From contig NZ_JAASHM010000006.1 of assembly GCF_019734195.1 (NCBI RefSeq), positions 62,001 through 126,000 on the forward strand: a stretch of DNA of 64,000 nt, given 5' to 3'. Source of the stretch: Clostridium sp. K13 (lineage in GTDB: Bacteria; Bacillota; Clostridia; Clostridiales; Clostridiaceae). Shown here one piece after another: positions 23,430 to 35,530 of this stretch; positions within the stretch are counted from its first letter, which is position 1; each line of letters opens with the position of its first letter. The position numbers and the translations under genes were made by a program. The notes beneath the pieces were generated by a model. The model made no database searches and was not told the DNA's origin. It saw only the letters and a list, made by a program, of their open reading frames with translations.

Positions 23430-25145
23430 TTAGAATAAGAAATATCTTTGTGCTAATGGTAATTCACTTGCTGGTTCACAAGTTACTAATTCTCCATCAA
23501 CTGTAACATCATAAGTTTGAGGATCTACTCTAATTTCTGGAGTAGCATCGTTAAGCTTCATATCTTTCTTAGTCAAATTTCTAATTCCACTTACTGGTAA
23601 AACTGTCTTTTCTAATCCTAATTCTTCTTTTACTCCGTGTTCATAAGCATATTTAGAAACGAAAGTTATACAAGTTGTTTCTTGTGCCTTTCCAAATGCT
23701 CCATAACAATCTCTATACACTACTGGTTGACATGTTGGGATAGAAGCATTAGCATCACCAATTATTCCTCTAATTGCCATTCCACCTTTAATAATTAAAT
23801 GTGGTTTAACTCCAAAGTATGGTGGTTCCCAAAGTACTAAGTCAGCAAGTTTTCCAACTTCTACTGAACCTATATATTTAGACATACCTTGTGCTATTGC
23901 AGGATTTATTGTATATTTAGCAATATATCTTCTAACTCTATTATTATCGCTATATTCACTATCATCTGGGAATGTTCCTCTTTGTTTCTTCATTTTTGAA
24001 GCTGTTTGCCAAGTTCTTGTTACGACTTCCCCAATTCTTCCCATTGCTAATGTATCAGAACTCATAATACTAAAAATACCCATATCTTGGAATATATCTT
24101 CAGCTGCTATTGTTTGATGTCTAATTCTTGAATCAGCAAAAGCTATATCTTCTGGTACTTTTGCATCTAAATGGTGACAAACCATAAGCATATCTAAATG
24201 TTCTGCTATTGTATTAATAGTATACGGCTTTGTTGGATTTGTTGATGCAGGTAAAATATTTATTTGTGATGCTACTTTCATTAAGTCTGGTGCGTGACCG
24301 CCTCCTGCACCTTCAGTATGATATGTATGAATTACTCTACCAGCAATTGCTTGAATAGTATGTTCTACAAATCCACCTTCATTTAAAGTATCACTATGTA
24401 AAGCAACTTGAGTATCATATTTTTCGGCTGTTTCTAATGCATAATTTATAGCTGATCTTGTTGCACCCCAGTCTTCATGAACTTTAAGTCCAATTGCACC
24501 TGCTTCTATTTGTTCAGCATTAACATCAATATTAGCTCCGCTACCTTTTCCTAAAATACCTACATTTACTGGCCATCCGTCTGCTGATTGAAGCATTTTT
24601 CCTATATTCCATGGTCCAGGAGTAGAAGTAACAGCATTTGTACCATCAATTGGACCTGTTCCTCCACCTACTAATGTAGTAATACCATTTTCTAATGCAA
24701 CTTGAGCACATTCTGGATGAATATAGTGAACGTGAGTATCTATTCCACCAGCTGTTAAAATTCTTCCTTCACCTGCTAAGGCTTCAGTTCCAACCCCTAC
24801 TACAAAGTCAACATTATCCATTGTGTCAGGGTTACCGCCTTTACCTATAGCAATAATTTTTCCATCTTTAATACCTACATCTGCTTTATATATTCCAGTG
24901 TAGTCTACTATAGTTGCACCTGTTATAATTAAATCAACAACTTCTGGATTTTTGCTAGTTTGAGTAGCATTTTGACCCATACCATCTCTAAGAGTTTTAC
25001 CTCCACCAAACTTACACTCGTTTCCATATCCTGTATAGTCTTTTTCAATTTTTATGAAAAGGTCAGTATCTGCAAGTCTGATACTATCCCCTTCTGTTGG
25101 CCCAAATAATTCTGCATATCTATGTCTATCAATTTCAAAACTCAT
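23430..25145 (-). CDS. ureC: urease subunit alpha (catalytic)
   Basis: 571 residues, full length. The nickel ligands are all visible: THVHYIHPE, the lysine to be carbamylated in [31 protein letters not shown], the flap CHHLD, and the aspartate in SSDTLAMGR. The enzyme hydrolyses urea to ammonia and carbamate in the cytoplasm. Its ATG shares one base with the ureB stop (TAATG). The separate A, B and C subunits follow the usual bacterial three-gene arrangement, unlike Helicobacter where A and B are fused. Confidence 0.98.
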
Positions 25146-26788: not shown

Positions 26789-28327
26789 TTATTCTAATTC
26801 CCATTCTTCTACATTCCAAAATATCCCTACGCCATGGTGCCCTAATATTGTTTCTGTTGATATTCCTTTTATATTACTCTTAGCTATATAAATTGCATCT
26901 ATATATGCTAAGAATGTATATGGCATATCTTTTGTCATTTCTTCTTGAAATTCTTTATAGTATTTCAATCTTTCTTCAAATACATCTATATGCCTTGCTT
27001 CAGTAAGTAATTTATCTATTTTACTATTTGAATATGCATTAAAATTATCACCACCATTGGTTGTAAATACTTTATATGTATGATTATCAGGATCAAATGG
27101 ACTTCCCCATCCTACTAAAAAGGCCCCTTGATTTTTCCAATCAATATTTGCATTTACAACAACTTTCACATCAACTCCAACCTTTTTTAACTCTTGTGAT
27201 AAAAAATTTGAAATATCTAATCTTTCTTGGTCACCCTCCATAGAAACTAATTCAAAACTTAATTTTGTTCCATCTTTTTCATATATTCCATCATTACCAA
27301 TTTTCCATCCTGCATCTTCTAATAACTCTTTAGTCTTATTAGGATTATAGTCGAATTTTTCTATATCAGGATTATTGTATTTTCCCATTTGTAGAGGTGA
27401 ATATGCAACTTCACCATATCCTAATAAAATGTTATCTACTATTTCCTTTCTATTTACTGCATAACTTAAAGCATTTGGTAACTCTCTATTTTCTTTAAAT
27501 AATGGATAATTAAAATTGTACATTATTCCTCGATAATCAGAAGTCTTCATAACATCTATTACAAATTCATTATTTCCTTTAAATGTATCAATATCTTTTG
27601 GTGTAACTTGTGCTAAATCTAATTCCCCACTTTTTAATTGAACTACTCTAGCTTTTGTATCATCCACTATCTTAAAAATTATTTTATCTATCTTAGGGTC
27701 ACTTTTGAAATATTCCTCATTTTTTATAAGTGTTATACTTTGACCTTCATCCCAATTGCTAAACTTATATGGCCCAGTACCTATAGGATTTCTATTAAAT
27801 TCAGAAGTAGTAATATCTTGACCTTCCCAAATATGCTTAGGTAATATTCCTACCGTTAAGTAATCTAATAAAGCAACATTTTCATTTTTTAAAACAATTT
27901 TTAAAGTATTGTTATCAATTATTTGGATTTCATCTATATCTATATAATTAGATACTATTTCTGATCCTACCTCTGGATTTAAGATAGTCTCATAAGTAAA
28001 TTTCACATCTTCTGATGTAAATGCTTTTCCATCATGCCATTTAACATCATTCCTTAAATAAAATGTATATGTTAAATTTTCTTTATCATATTCCCATTTT
28101 TCTGCTAAAGAAGGTACTATATTATTATCTTTATCATGAGATGTTAATCCATTAAACAATAATAAATTAATTTCTCCATGCTCATACAAAGCTGGATTTA
28201 TACTTGTATAATCATTGCTTCCATATACTAATACATTTTCATTTTTTACATTTTCTTCACCTTTACAGCCTATACTCACCATTAAAGTAATAATTAATAT
28301 AATACTCACTAATCCTTTTAACTTCAT
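26789..28327 (-). CDS. nikA: nickel/peptide ABC transporter substrate-binding lipoprotein (solitary paralogue)
   Basis: SBP family 5 protein of 512 residues with lipobox MVSIGC. I start at ATG 28327 with GGAGGG upstream; the longer frame to 28363 would lie inside the leader terminator. It is close to the other substrate-binding protein of this locus along its whole length (shared: INPALYEHGEIN, RNPIGTGPYK, ELDLAQVTPKDI, YRGIMYNFN, and the end GHHGVGIFWNVEEWELE). It has its own promoter and leader. Nickel specificity rests on context: hypB, urease and the shared leader; an oligopeptide or chelator role is the alternative. Confidence 0.72.
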   Translation of the reverse strand: MKLKGLVSIILIITLMVSIGCKGEENVKNENVLVYGSNDYTSINPALYEHGEINLLLFNGLTSHDKDNNIVPSLAEKWEYDKENLTYTFYLRNDVKWHDGKAFTSEDVKFTYETILNPEVGSEIVSNYIDIDEIQIIDNNTLKIVLKNENVALLDYLTVGILPKHIWEGQDITTSEFNRNPIGTGPYKFSNWDEGQSITLIKNEEYFKSDPKIDKIIFKIVDDTKARVVQLKSGELDLAQVTPKDIDTFKGNNEFVIDVMKTSDYRGIMYNFNYPLFKENRELPNALSYAVNRKEIVDNILLGYGEVAYSPLQMGKYNNPDIEKFDYNPNKTKELLEDAGWKIGNDGIYEKDGTKLSFELVSMEGDQERLDISNFLSQELKKVGVDVKVVVNANIDWKNQGAFLVGWGSPFDPDNHTYKVFTTNGGDNFNAYSNSKIDKLLTEARHIDVFEERLKYYKEFQEEMTKDMPYTFLAYIDAIYIAKSNIKGISTETILGHHGVGIFWNVEEWELE

Positions 28328-28344: not shown

Positions 28345-28464
28345 ATTTAAAAATAAAAACCACGAAAAAGATAACGAAAAAACTTTCTTCGTTAACCTTC
28401 GTGGTTAATATAATTACATTTTATTATTTTATTACTAAATATAAGCCCTCGTGACTTATATAAT
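28345..28464 (-). ncRNA. tandem-hairpin leader with terminator, copy 2 (upstream of solitary nikA)
   Basis: Read on the minus strand. Hairpin A (28458-28442) is TAAGTC-ACGAG-GGCTTA, next comes TATTTAGTAA and a linker, then hairpin B (28408-28392) TTAACC-ACGAA-GGTTAA. The first arm and loop of B, AACCACGAA (28406-28398), also pair perfectly with TTCGTGGTT (28366-28358), with an inner stem, followed by TTTATTTTTAAA: an intrinsic terminator that excludes hairpin B. A -10 TATAAT at 28476-28471 (weak -35) puts the RNA 5' end next to hairpin A. The coding start is 28327. Same design as the nikB leader. Confidence 0.7.
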
Positions 28465-32261: not shown

Positions 32262-33161
32262 TTATAAGTTATTATATTTTTTAATATTTTTTCTTCTTAA
32301 ATAATTACCTATATTAGCAATAGAAACAAGTGTTACTACTAAGAATAAACCTGGAATTAAAATTATCCACCAATAATTAGATAGTAATGCATCTTGAGCT
32401 AATGAAAGCATACTACCCCAAGATATTATCTCAATAGGTAATCCAATTCCTAAAAAGCTTAATGTTGATTCTGTTGCAATGGCAGAACCTATATTACTAA
32501 CTACCATAAACATTATTGAAGATATAAAATTAGGTACTAAATGTTGTTTTACTATATAAAAAAATTTTCCTCCCATTATTTTTGCAGCCAATATATACTC
32601 GCTATTTCTTATTTGCCTTACTTCACTTCTTACTATCTTTGATATACTCATCCAACTTACTAAACCAATTACTATTGATATTGAAACTGGATTACTTCCA
32701 CCTATAATTGCTTGAACAAAAATTATTATTAATATTGATGGTATGCTAAGTAATATTTCAGTTGCCTTCATCATTAAATCATCAATCCACTCTGGTGCCA
32801 TTCCACTAATACTTCCATATACAATTGCAAAAGTTGTTGATATTATTGTTGAAAATATACCTATAAATAAAGAAATTCTTCCACCATACCATATATCTGA
32901 AAAAATATCTCTTCCCATTGAATCCGTCCCAAAATAAAAAATGCTATTTGGTGAAACATTTGAATTTGCTAAATCTATAAATTTAGGATTATGAGTCATT
33001 ATAATATTTGAAAATAAACATCCTAAAATTATTATTGTTAATACTACCATAGACATAATAGGGAATTTTTTTGGTAATTTAAAATTCTTTTTAATATCTT
33101 TATGTTCTATAAAACTCTCCTTATCTTTAACAATTTCAAAGTTATTAATATCAAGGTTCAA
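32262..33161 (-). CDS. nikC: nickel/peptide ABC transporter permease, NikC type
   Basis: A BPD-type permease with an N-terminal tail and six hydrophobic segments; FGTDSMGRDIFSDIWYGGR and the EAA loop AAKIMGGKFFYIVKQHLVPN are visible, ending in a basic RRKNIKK tail. Start: I prefer TTG 33161, 5 nt after AAAGGGGTGA and overlapping the nikB stop by 11 nt; an ATG at 33179 lies upstream of that site in the same frame. It pairs with NikB as membrane channel. Confidence 0.8.
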   Translation of the reverse strand: MNLDINNFEIVKDKESFIEHKDIKKNFKLPKKFPIMSMVVLTIIILGCLFSNIIMTHNPKFIDLANSNVSPNSIFYFGTDSMGRDIFSDIWYGGRISLFIGIFSTIISTTFAIVYGSISGMAPEWIDDLMMKATEILLSIPSILIIIFVQAIIGGSNPVSISIVIGLVSWMSISKIVRSEVRQIRNSEYILAAKIMGGKFFYIVKQHLVPNFISSIMFMVVSNIGSAIATESTLSFLGIGLPIEIISWGSMLSLAQDALLSNYWWIILIPGLFLVVTLVSIANIGNYLRRKNIKKYNNL

Positions 33162-34131
33162 ATATCTCACCCCTTTCATACTTCATTCTTGGATCTATCT
33201 TAGTATTGATTATTTGAGCTACCATATTTGAAACTAATACTAATATTCCTGTAATAAGAGTTAATATCATAAGCATATTATAATCATGATATTTTGCACT
33301 TTCAAAAATTAAGGTCCCTATTCCAGGATAGGAAAATACCTTTTCAACAACATAAGTCCCTGCTAATATATGTGGAACAGAAACTGCCATTATAGTTATA
33401 AAAGATGGTGCAATATTTCTTAAGCAATGCCTATAAATAATTTGACTCTTATTTAAGCCTTTAACTTTTGCAAGCAATACATAATCTTCTCTCATTTCCT
33501 CTAATATTTTGTTTCTTACCATATAAGCGTAATACCATAAATGTCCTAATATTAATACTATTAAAGGTAAAATTAAGTGTATAATTCTATCACCTATATT
33601 ATCTGACATTCCAATTGAATATGCCCCGCTAGTTGGTAAAATAGCTAAGTTTACTCCGAAAATTAAAATAAGTATTAATGATATCCAAAATGACGGTATA
33701 CAGGATGTTATATTACCAATAGTAATTATTATCCTATCTAGTATTCTATCTTCATGTAAAGCACAATATATTCCTAAAAGTAATGCTAATAAAAAAGTAG
33801 AAATATATGCAATTCCTCCTAAAATAATTGTATTTAAACATACATCTCCAATAACTGCCTTTACATCTCTTTTATATTTATATGAAATTCCAAAATCACC
33901 TTTTGTTATTCCTTTTATCCACTTACCATACTGAACATGAATAGGGGAATTAAGTCCTAATTTCTCCATAGCACTTTCTTTTTGCTCCTTATTCATTCTT
34001 TCAATAGCATTTCCATAATAAGCTTCAAGAGGATCTCCTGGAGATAATCTTGCCATATAAAATACAACTATTGATAGCAAGAATACCGCAATTAAACACT
34101 GTAAAAATTTTTTCAATATAATTTTAATCAT
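33151..34131 (-). CDS. nikB: nickel/peptide ABC transporter permease, NikB type
   Basis: 326 residues, first gene of the importer operon. N-terminal membrane segment AVFLLSIVVFYMARLSPGDP, the typical IPSFWISLILILIFG and the EAA loop LAKVKGLNKSQIIYRHCLRN. Ribosome site AAAGGAG. Its ATG lies about 20 nt after the leader terminator, so expression depends on read-through of that leader. Confidence 0.82.
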   Translation of the reverse strand: MIKIILKKFLQCLIAVFLLSIVVFYMARLSPGDPLEAYYGNAIERMNKEQKESAMEKLGLNSPIHVQYGKWIKGITKGDFGISYKYKRDVKAVIGDVCLNTIILGGIAYISTFLLALLLGIYCALHEDRILDRIIITIGNITSCIPSFWISLILILIFGVNLAILPTSGAYSIGMSDNIGDRIIHLILPLIVLILGHLWYYAYMVRNKILEEMREDYVLLAKVKGLNKSQIIYRHCLRNIAPSFITIMAVSVPHILAGTYVVEKVFSYPGIGTLIFESAKYHDYNMLMILTLITGILVLVSNMVAQIINTKIDPRMKYERGEIFEP

Positions 34132-34150: not shown

Positions 34151-34264
34151 TAAACAAAAAAACCACGAAAAAAGATAACGAATTTTTATCGTTAACCTTC
34201 GTGGTTATTATAAATACTATCATATTAAGTTTAATTTACTGAATATAAGCCTTCGTGACTTACA
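34151..34264 (-). ncRNA. tandem-hairpin leader with terminator, copy 1 (upstream of nikB)
   Basis: Minus strand. Hairpin A (34262-34246) is TAAGTC-ACGAA-GGCTTA; TATTCAGTAA follows; hairpin B (34207-34193) is TAACC-ACGAA-GGTTA. AACCACGAA (34206-34198), which makes the 5' arm and loop of B, pairs instead with TTCGTGGTT (34169-34161), with inner stem TAACGA / TCGTTA, and a tail of TTTTTGTTTA: a terminator exclusive with B. The predicted start site is 0-2 nt before hairpin A. I know no riboswitch family with this consensus. Stabilising B would be expected to permit nikB transcription. Confidence 0.75.
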
Positions 34265-34270
34265 TTATAT

Positions 34271-34299
34271 ATATTACCCCTTTAACCATTTATTGTCAA
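34271..34299 (-). promoter_or_regulatory. promoter of the nik operon
   Basis: A perfect -35 TTGACA (34299-34294) and TAATAT (34276-34271) 17 bp apart on the minus strand. The -35 lies just past the hypB stop. The predicted start, near 34264, places the leader hairpin at the very 5' end of the RNA. Confidence 0.75.
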
Positions 34300-34300
34300 T

Positions 34301-34951
34301 CTATTTTTCTTTCATTTTATCTTCTATGTGTTTAACTAATGAATCAATTTCTCTTCCTGTTCTACTAGAAACTTTAAATATACTGCAATCACTATTAATA
34401 CTTCTTGTATCTTTTTCTACTTTATTTTCATTAAAATCAAAATGTTCCATCATATCGTATTTATTTAATACAAGTATATTACTTTCTGCAAATAATAATG
34501 GATACTTTTCAACTTTATCATCACCTTCTGGAATACTTAATATTGCTATTTTTAAATTTTCTCCAATATCAAATTCTGCAGGACAAATTAAATTACCTAT
34601 GTTTTCAACAAAAATAATATCTATTTCATCTAAATCAAAATATCCTAATATTTCTTTAATAGATAATGGTGCTATGTGACATGCTCCATTTAAATTTAAT
34701 TGTACTACTGCAATACCTAACTTATCAATTTTTTCAGCATCTACTTGGCCGGCAATATCGCCTTCAATAACAGCTATATTATATTTTTCTTTCAAAGCTT
34801 TTATTAATTCAATTATTAACGTTGTTTTTCCTGTTCCAGGAGATCCCATTACATTTATTAAAAATATATTCTTTTCTTTTAGTATTTCCTTTATTTCATT
34901 ACCACATTCATCTCTATAATCAATTTCTTGTTTTATCACCTTTATATTCAT
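34301..34951 (-). CDS. hypB: nickel-incorporation GTPase HypB
   Basis: 216 residues. P-loop VMGSPGTGKTT, metal-site GACHIAP, FVENIGNLICPAEFD with the conserved cysteine, and base motif LNKYDM. HypB loads nickel into [NiFe] hydrogenase. There is no histidine-rich N-terminal stretch and no hydrogenase or other hyp gene in the window, so it may here serve urease as well, or a hydrogenase encoded elsewhere; both are inference. It is immediately upstream of the nik promoter. Confidence 0.9.
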   Translation of the reverse strand: MNIKVIKQEIDYRDECGNEIKEILKEKNIFLINVMGSPGTGKTTLIIELIKALKEKYNIAVIEGDIAGQVDAEKIDKLGIAVVQLNLNGACHIAPLSIKEILGYFDLDEIDIIFVENIGNLICPAEFDIGENLKIAILSIPEGDDKVEKYPLLFAESNILVLNKYDMMEHFDFNENKVEKDTRSINSDCSIFKVSSRTGREIDSLVKHIEDKMKEK

Positions 34952-35107: not shown

Positions 35108-35530
35108 ATGATTATAGCTATTTTTGATACTAACGGAGCTGGTCTTGGTCAAAACATCATTAAAAGATTAAAAAAAGATTTATCTAATGATATTAATATA
35201 ATTGCACTTGGTACTAATACATTTGCAACTTCAAAAATGGTTAAGGCTGGAGCTCATGTTGGTGTAAGTGGTGAAAAGGCTATTAGTTCTTTTTGTAAAA
35301 AAAACAAAGTAGATTGTATCATTGCTCCTATTGGTATATTATGCAATGGTGAAAAGGATATGGAGTTATGCCCTAGTATATGCAAATCAATTATAAATAT
35401 GGACTGCACTAAATATATACTTCCACTACAAAAATATGATATATATATACCCGGTACAAGAAATTTTCAAATTAAGGATTTTATAGAAGAAATACTTTCT
35501 GATATTAAAAATAAAATGGTGACAAGTTAA
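35108..35530 (+). CDS. DUF3842-like protein
   Basis: 140 residues, opening with a Rossmann-like nucleotide motif IAIFDTNGAGLGQNIIKRL, then IALGTNTFATSKMVKAGA and a possible metal site LCNGEKDMELCPSICKSI. I assign it to DUF3842 by overall pattern; function unknown. It is divergent from hypB across a 156-bp AT-rich gap and has a strong GGAGGAAG ribosome site. Cysteines and nickel-gene neighbours hint at a metal link, which is speculative. Confidence 0.7.
   Translation: MIIAIFDTNGAGLGQNIIKRLKKDLSNDINIIALGTNTFATSKMVKAGAHVGVSGEKAISSFCKKNKVDCIIAPIGILCNGEKDMELCPSICKSIINMDCTKYILPLQKYDIYIPGTRNFQIKDFIEEILSDIKNKMVTS

Follow-up and report, generated by a model that had tools for sequence, protein, structure and literature searches.

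The LicT/SacY RAT, with which the leaders were compared by way of Rfam, is a protein-stabilised antiterminator that overlaps a terminator, but it is formed by one larger hairpin with internal loops, not by two small ones. NikR acts on the same kind of target genes as those considered here (nikABCDE), but is a DNA-binding repressor. The NiCo (czcD) riboswitch, which shares the link to transition metals, is a larger four-way junction. It has since been recast as an Fe(II) riboswitch, according to one report (PMC11477304). The ANTAR proteins EutV, NasR and AmiR act by antitermination on small hairpins, of which EutV targets have two; certain loop letters are conserved, and hairpins and an intrinsic terminator exclude each other. 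Their loops are hexanucleotides with conserved A1 and G4 (PMC3369931). Guanidine-II (mini-ykkC) has two like hairpins whose loops start with A-C-G and for which cross-loop pairing is possible; the loops are ACGR tetraloops (PMC5486947).

The leaders described here are a new family within a known kind, the tandem-hairpin antitermination leader. In contrast to ANTAR targets, they mostly have the pentaloop A-Y-G-A-R and serve a Ni/Co regulon; in contrast to guanidine-II, their loops are ACGAR or AUGAA and their targets are Ni/Co importers. The starting point was a stretch of 64,000 nucleotides from Clostridium sp. K13, called the window, which holds two such leaders, both on the minus strand. The features of the window are as follows.

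34301-34951, minus strand: hypB, upstream of the nikB leader
34271-34299, minus strand: sigma-A-type promoter, with -35 TTGACA (34299-34294), a 17-nt spacer and -10 TAATAT (34276-34271)
34264 to 34156, minus strand: the whole nikB leader, between hypB and nikB
34244-34264, minus strand: hairpin A at the predicted RNA 5' end, core TAAGTC-ACGAA-GGCTTA (from fold and covariation)
34193-34207, minus strand: hairpin B, the predicted antiterminator, TAACC-ACGAA-GGTTA (from covariation)
34156-34206, minus strand: intrinsic terminator of the nikB leader, stem 34206-34161, U-tract 34160-34156
33151-34131, minus strand: nikB-like permease, first gene after the leader, start at 34131
35108-35530, plus strand: DUF3842 (PF12953) gene, divergent neighbour and candidate partner of the leader
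28461 to 28358, minus strand: the whole second leader, before another nikA-like gene
28439-28461, minus strand: hairpin A of the second leader, core TAAGTC-ACGAG-GGCTTA
28393-28407, minus strand: hairpin B of the second leader, TAACC-ACGAA-GGTTA
28358-28406, minus strand: terminator of the second leader, whose 5' arm is common with its hairpin B
26789-28327, minus strand: second nikA-like binding protein (SBP_bac_5), likely start ATG 28327 behind GGAGGG

The original prediction placed two hairpins with a common C-ACGAA-GG core before nikB, and both are present on the minus strand, joined by a 36-nt linker. It also had the 5' arm and loop of B serving as the 5' arm of the terminator, and the terminator of the nikB leader indeed contains them. 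The 'near-perfect promoter' is there (TTGACA, 17 nt, TAATAT), but the wording was slightly strong, with only 4 of 6 consensus letters in the -10 box. The minus-strand fold of the leader stands out from shuffles (z = -3.65), whereas the plus strand of the same stretch is unremarkable (z = -1.60). The nikB-like gene is followed by nikC-like and nikA-like genes and two ATPase genes, assigned by reading. The second leader, absent from the original prediction, has a stable fold as well (z = -5.06 against shuffles). The GTG start (28363) given by the ORF tool for the second nikA falls within the leader terminator, and ATG 28327 is therefore preferred. The short sequence CACGAAGG occurs three times in the window against 0.07 expected, twice in the nikB leader and once in the second leader. 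A third leader was seen in the same genome (L072, contig C67, 3511-3586, minus strand) before what looks like a truncated methyltransferase relic, possibly left over from an ECF-S/methyltransferase locus that has decayed.

At the leaders, Rfam 15 gave no family, whether in a scan of the whole window, of its two leaders taken singly, of 20 loci or of the further leaders tested. The element was thus rightly called unrecognised, and rightly distinguished from the NiCo (czcD) motif, for which the window and the leaders tested gave no match. With cmscan, guanidine-II gave no match at E <= 10 for either window leader, nor at E <= 1 for the 20 loci, and the loops of 65 leaders do not form two ACGR-tetraloop hairpins. 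No cobalamin riboswitch was matched at the leader in the 20 loci; the sole cobalamin match among them, in L043 (206-387), lies away from the leader (1501-1582). Sub-threshold Rfam matches at the leaders of the window (SNORD87, PrrF, SpF19 and others) were treated as chance hits. Searches of the literature for such a leader, covering the listed titles and abstract openings, showed no published account, and the words nickel, cobalt and cbiM are absent from the main text of an attenuator paper (PMC2965389).

The sole match in the window at gathering score was to 5_ureB_sRNA (87 bits, 24701-24992, plus strand), antisense to ureC, the urease alpha gene (23430-25145, minus strand). This is probably an echo of coding-sequence conservation; an antisense RNA is possible.

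Homologues were sought in 206 genomes of the family with the loop pattern only, blind to the stems. The exact pattern was found at 13 places in 12 genomes; the raw count proves nothing, since a reversed control pattern matched 15 places. Position, stems and downstream context mark twelve of these places as leaders; the other (L023) lies inside a gene and was removed before covariation was counted. A covariance model, R1, built from these 12 leaders (MAFFT alignment), gave matches in 54 of the 206 genomes at E <= 0.1, a cut at which about 20 chance matches are expected, and 44 matches in 40 genomes at E <= 0.001. A second model from 47 aligned leaders (alignment A3) was used on class and phylum genomes. 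At E <= 0.01 it hit 16 of 393 class genomes, of which 13 were accepted on inspection and three (G252, G292, G415) rejected; at E <= 0.001 it hit 4 of 398 phylum genomes, and three of these lie beyond the class. These prevalence figures are lower bounds, because the default and fast search filters lose true leaders (L020, L040, L049 and L072 were missed and later recovered), and the genomes are akin to one another, so that counts are of non-independent events. A pattern scan of named genome contigs gave 18 stretches, 12 of them in Clostridium records (among these C. algoriphilum, C. bowmanii, C. frigoris, C. lacusfryxellense, C. chromiireducens and C. tetanomorphum). The other six (L112, L116, L120, L122, L125, L126) were chance-like on inspection. 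The covariance-model search of clostridial genomes that the original prediction had proposed has thus returned homologues in many genomes.

A curated set of 68 leaders comprises the 47 of A3 and 21 added ones, hand-picked after the hairpins, and partly the gene context, had been seen. Weak or atypical leaders were omitted from it (L081, L083, L084, L086, L087, L088, L090, L092, L093, L098, L101, L104, L110, L136, L143), some of which are probably real (L081, L084, L088, L090, L136). Near copies (L046, L049, L076, L108, L109) were also omitted, and L169-L171, found later, lie outside the set. Three near-identical leaders with their downstream lipoprotein genes (L106, L108, L109) occur in three genomes of two families (f47, f23), a pattern suggestive of recent horizontal transfer of a leader-controlled transporter.

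Both stems covary. In the 12 loop-selected leaders double-sided changes occur in 9 of 13 pairs, with 92.3% of cells paired, and none of 500 shuffles was as high in any measure. This result is not circular, because the stems beyond the closing pairs were absent from the search pattern. Among the 47 leaders, in an alignment that was fitted to the model, double-sided changes occur in 11 of 13 pairs, with 128 double-change cells compared to 34.3 in shuffles and at most 38 in slid controls. Compensatory changes, the check suggested along with the model search, are therefore found in both stems and both alignments.

The loops hardly vary, and the common form in both hairpins is mostly A-Y-G-A-R. For 65 leaders loop A was read as ACGAG (25), ACGAA (21), AUGAA (9) or otherwise (10), and loop B as ACGAA or ACGAG (59), AUGAA (5) or AAGAA (1). 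Loop B was set at 5 nt by the script, which also misread A in L050, L077 and L078, where C-ACGAA-G is seen by eye; as read, 5 nt is the length of 60 A loops and of every B loop among the 65. The closing pair of A in the 47 leaders is C-G (22), U-A (18) or U-G (7). The fixed part is the loop, not the closing pair, since the closing pairs of A vary. Only L161 among the 65 has a 4-nt A loop by eye. In L161 and L136, both before ECF S components, hairpin A carries a 4-nt YGAA loop in place of AYGAR, and the first loop letter of A may be dispensable. The linker between A and B is 20 to 60 nt long (median 37, 65 leaders). Long linkers have been observed in L137 (about 140 nt) and L141 (about 230 nt), where A and B may be separate modules that meet in space.

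The promoter and the terminator accompany the hairpins. The best -35/-10 score was at least 9 in 55 of 64 leaders (four curated leaders were left out of this test), compared to 6 of 63 control stretches. In 55 of 64 the -10 box ends 3-14 nt before hairpin A; for the controls the figure was 20 of 63 at 4-15 nt. In 62 of the 68 curated leaders the 5' arm of the terminator shares sequence with the stem of B, about 40 via the 5' arm of B and 22 via the 3' arm only, a split that is approximate because the scan took short 3' forms (e.g., L043, L055) despite a visible longer 5' form. The 5'-arm layout is found in nik, most cbiM and other leaders. In the 3' layout, exemplified by AAGGTAGAG...CTCTACCTT, the terminator begins within the loop and 3' arm of B; this layout is found in the ECF-S group and in some cbiM leaders (L037, L065, L085). 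The terminator scan found no overlap in six leaders, in three of which (L068, L099, L100) a matching 3' arm, missed by the U-tract rule, is seen by eye. Across the 62 overlapping cases the predicted terminator energies run from -6.9 to -27.2 kcal/mol and reach -10 kcal/mol or stronger in 55; for hairpin B alone they are -1.3 to -8.4 kcal/mol. The attenuator logic first proposed for nikB, in which B excludes the terminator, extends to the 62 leaders, with antiterminator and intrinsic terminator exclusive before the start codon, and includes lineages that use the other arm of B. From the sequences, exclusivity conserved through two layouts would be hard to explain unless it were important.

The genes behind the leaders are mainly Ni/Co importers and genes for handling nickel. 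Gene labels of representatives were checked by Pfam. For all 44 R1 matches at E <= 0.001, the first labelled gene is CbiM (27), CbiQ (4), NikB (3), NicO/NiCoT (2), NikA (1), an ECF S component (3), LarC (1) or a TnpB-like protein (1), with two unlabelled. Known Ni/Co transporter genes thus stand behind 37 of the 44, and larC behind one. This tally is unbiased, because R1 was derived from loop-pattern matches. In the curated 68 the genes are CbiM (37), ECF S (10), NikB (5), CbiQ (3), NicO (3), FmdE (2), TnpB-like (2), LarC (1), NikA (1) and DUF3842 (1), with three unlabelled, a tally biased because leaders were partly chosen knowing the gene context. By reading, L106 and its near copies L108 and L109 stand before a binding lipoprotein and permease, and of the leaders outside the class two precede a nikA/OppA-like binding protein and one a methyltransferase. 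No downstream Ni/Co gene could be labelled for L030, L054, L072 and L077. The placement before nik and cbi genes that the original prediction called for holds, with NiCoT, larC, FmdE and ECF-S genes added, and the common thread of these targets appears to be nickel, with cobalt possible too.

Some targets are unusual. An uncharacterised ECF S component, with a FLPMHIPVLLCGF-like stretch, recurs in L071, L063, L069, L074, L075 and L138; in several of these loci a SAM methyltransferase comes next. The cargo of the S component may be nickel, cobalt or a chelate. FmdE-domain proteins, for which nickel roles are possible, lie directly behind the leader in L078 and L100, followed by an apparent iron-chelate type ABC transporter (L078, by reading) or by a methyltransferase (L100). 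In two species of one genus a TnpB-like (OrfB_IS605) protein stands behind the leader (L167, 9709-10797, plus strand; L168, 11350-12420, minus strand) with an OppA-like binding protein adjacent. By eye these proteins lack the RuvC catalytic motifs, and in this they resemble nuclease-dead TldR repressors; a nickel leader in control of an RNA-guided repressor would, if true, be remarkable. The best R1 score (76 bits) belongs to L030 (1501-1576, minus strand), which has no labelled gene closely behind it on its own strand and points at the 3' end of a DUF3842 gene on the opposite strand. Either this leader has lost its target, perhaps, or it might regulate DUF3842 as an antisense RNA.

It is rather likely that these leaders are a new family of cis-acting antitermination elements controlling Ni/Co uptake genes, and each probably works as an on/off switch for metal import, as judged from sequence. 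By sequence, the promoter sets the RNA start at or beside hairpin A, and B and the terminator exclude each other. In the proposed mechanism the terminator, by predicted energy, would beat B when no factor is present, giving OFF as the default. Because the terminator is predicted to be the more stable, something must hold B for expression. This factor would grip both like loops and hold B, so that RNA polymerase could continue into the genes for import. The likeness of the two loops points to a symmetrical grip, with either a dimer or, on the guanidine-II pattern, a loop-loop contact, and the factor would be a dimeric RNA-binding protein or a small ligand joining the loops. Since the downstream genes are importers, it would be active when nickel (or cobalt) is scarce. 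A protein factor is somewhat favoured; direct sensing of a ligand is the less likely of the two, though a serious contender.

Direct sensing, in which the A-Y-G-A-R loops bind a small ligand or metal ion and join loop to loop with no protein, is thus a tenable minority explanation. It would account for the two like loops in each leader and for the tendency of U at loop position 2 to co-occur: of the nine leaders with AUGAA in A, five have AUGAA and one AAGAA in B, while each of the other 56 has ACGAR in B. A precedent is the dimerisation of guanidine-II ACGR tetraloops through C-G pairs (PMC5486947). Five genomes that lack DUF3842, and 34 of 60 that lack an ANTAR domain, have nevertheless retained leaders, which also fits a switch that needs no protein. 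The sense of regulation is wrong, however, if nickel is the ligand, because importers would then be turned ON at high nickel. Moreover, cmscan gave no guanidine-II match in the leaders and loci scanned, the loops are mostly of 5 nt, not 4, and for an aptamer that is to be selective the conserved part is very small.

For a protein factor, DUF3842 is the best single candidate partner inferred from these data, though not an obligatory one. It is present in 64 of the 206 family genomes, and its distribution follows the leader: 50 of 54 leader genomes compared to 14 of 152 others at E <= 0.1, and 38 of 40 compared to 26 of 166 at E <= 0.001. Of the 14 genomes with 'DUF3842 only', five or more do carry an adjacent leader that the fast filter had passed over (L137, L138, L139, L141, L145). 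In 36 genomes no more than 6 kb separates the gene from a leader; it is the upstream, divergent neighbour of 27 leaders, and in L139 it is itself preceded by a leader. Outside the class it occurs in all three leader genomes of the phylum set. In the class set it was found in 8 of 10 non-family genomes with an accepted leader but also in 12 of 27 controls (one of which, G222, was later found to have a leader), so that it is frequent in other Clostridia. DUF3842 probably shares the physiology of the leader, and it may be the sensor.

That the leader has in DUF3842 a dedicated RNA-binding antiterminator and metal sensor is nevertheless a doubtful proposition. A 48-sequence profile did not detect it in the leader genomes G001, G081, G309, G482 and G086 (completeness 99, 100, 99, 92 and 94%), and because at least four good leader genomes are without it, it is not the sole factor; the leaders would seem to act without it in some species, or another factor to serve there. 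Its predicted fold is a common Rossmann-like one (mean pLDDT 91), with no RNA-binding sign or known RNA-binding relatives among the structural matches listed, and it was not found named in the literature searched. It may merely be another nickel protein of the locus, like HypB, whose gene stands between leader and DUF3842 in 10 of the 31 loci holding both. The fullest version, a nickel-status RNA regulon in which DUF3842, as a new RNA-binding metal sensor, would grip the paired hairpins under nickel shortage and replace NikR across Clostridia and beyond, is unlikely as a whole. A search of 60 leader genomes found no convincing NikR; 9 of them, and 3 of 20 others, gave NikR_C matches that were no more than marginal (21.7-27.5 bits, cut-off 22).

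The hairpins might instead be DNA operators of a repressor at +1, with the terminator incidental. Hairpin A does lie at the predicted transcription start, a common operator position, in 55 of 64 leaders. The arms, however, vary with complementarity kept while the loop letters are conserved, the reverse of what an operator would show, and B tracks the terminator in two layouts; this explanation is very improbable. The original prediction had likened the leader to ANTAR or RAT targets with different loops: ANTAR architecture stood, with tandem hairpins alternative to a terminator, as did the difference in loop size and sequence, but ANTAR as a general partner did not, since the domain over cut-off is absent from 34 of 60 leader genomes and neither an ANTAR protein in the genome nor a hexaloop with A1 and G4 is the rule. 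An ANTAR protein acting on an unusual ANTAR target is the least credible explanation of all, for although the two small hairpins alternative to a terminator are the same architecture (PMC3369931), the domain is found in 26 of 60 leader genomes compared to 16 of 20 genomes from the window's genus in which no leader was detected, and hexaloops with A1 and G4 there face loops mostly of 5 nt with G at position 3 here.

Antitermination by paired hairpins would give a concrete, testable answer to how nickel and cobalt uptake is controlled in many clostridia. For carbon monoxide dehydrogenase, hydrogenase, urease and lactate racemase, nickel supply is limiting in these organisms. The leader unites nik, cbi/nikMQO, NiCoT, larC, the orphan ECF S component, FmdE and DUF3842 in one regulon, and it represents a tandem-hairpin antiterminator family separate from ANTAR targets. 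It also offers a possible function for DUF3842, a protein family so far without one; if DUF3842 were the sensor, it would be the first of its fold as a metal-responsive antiterminator.
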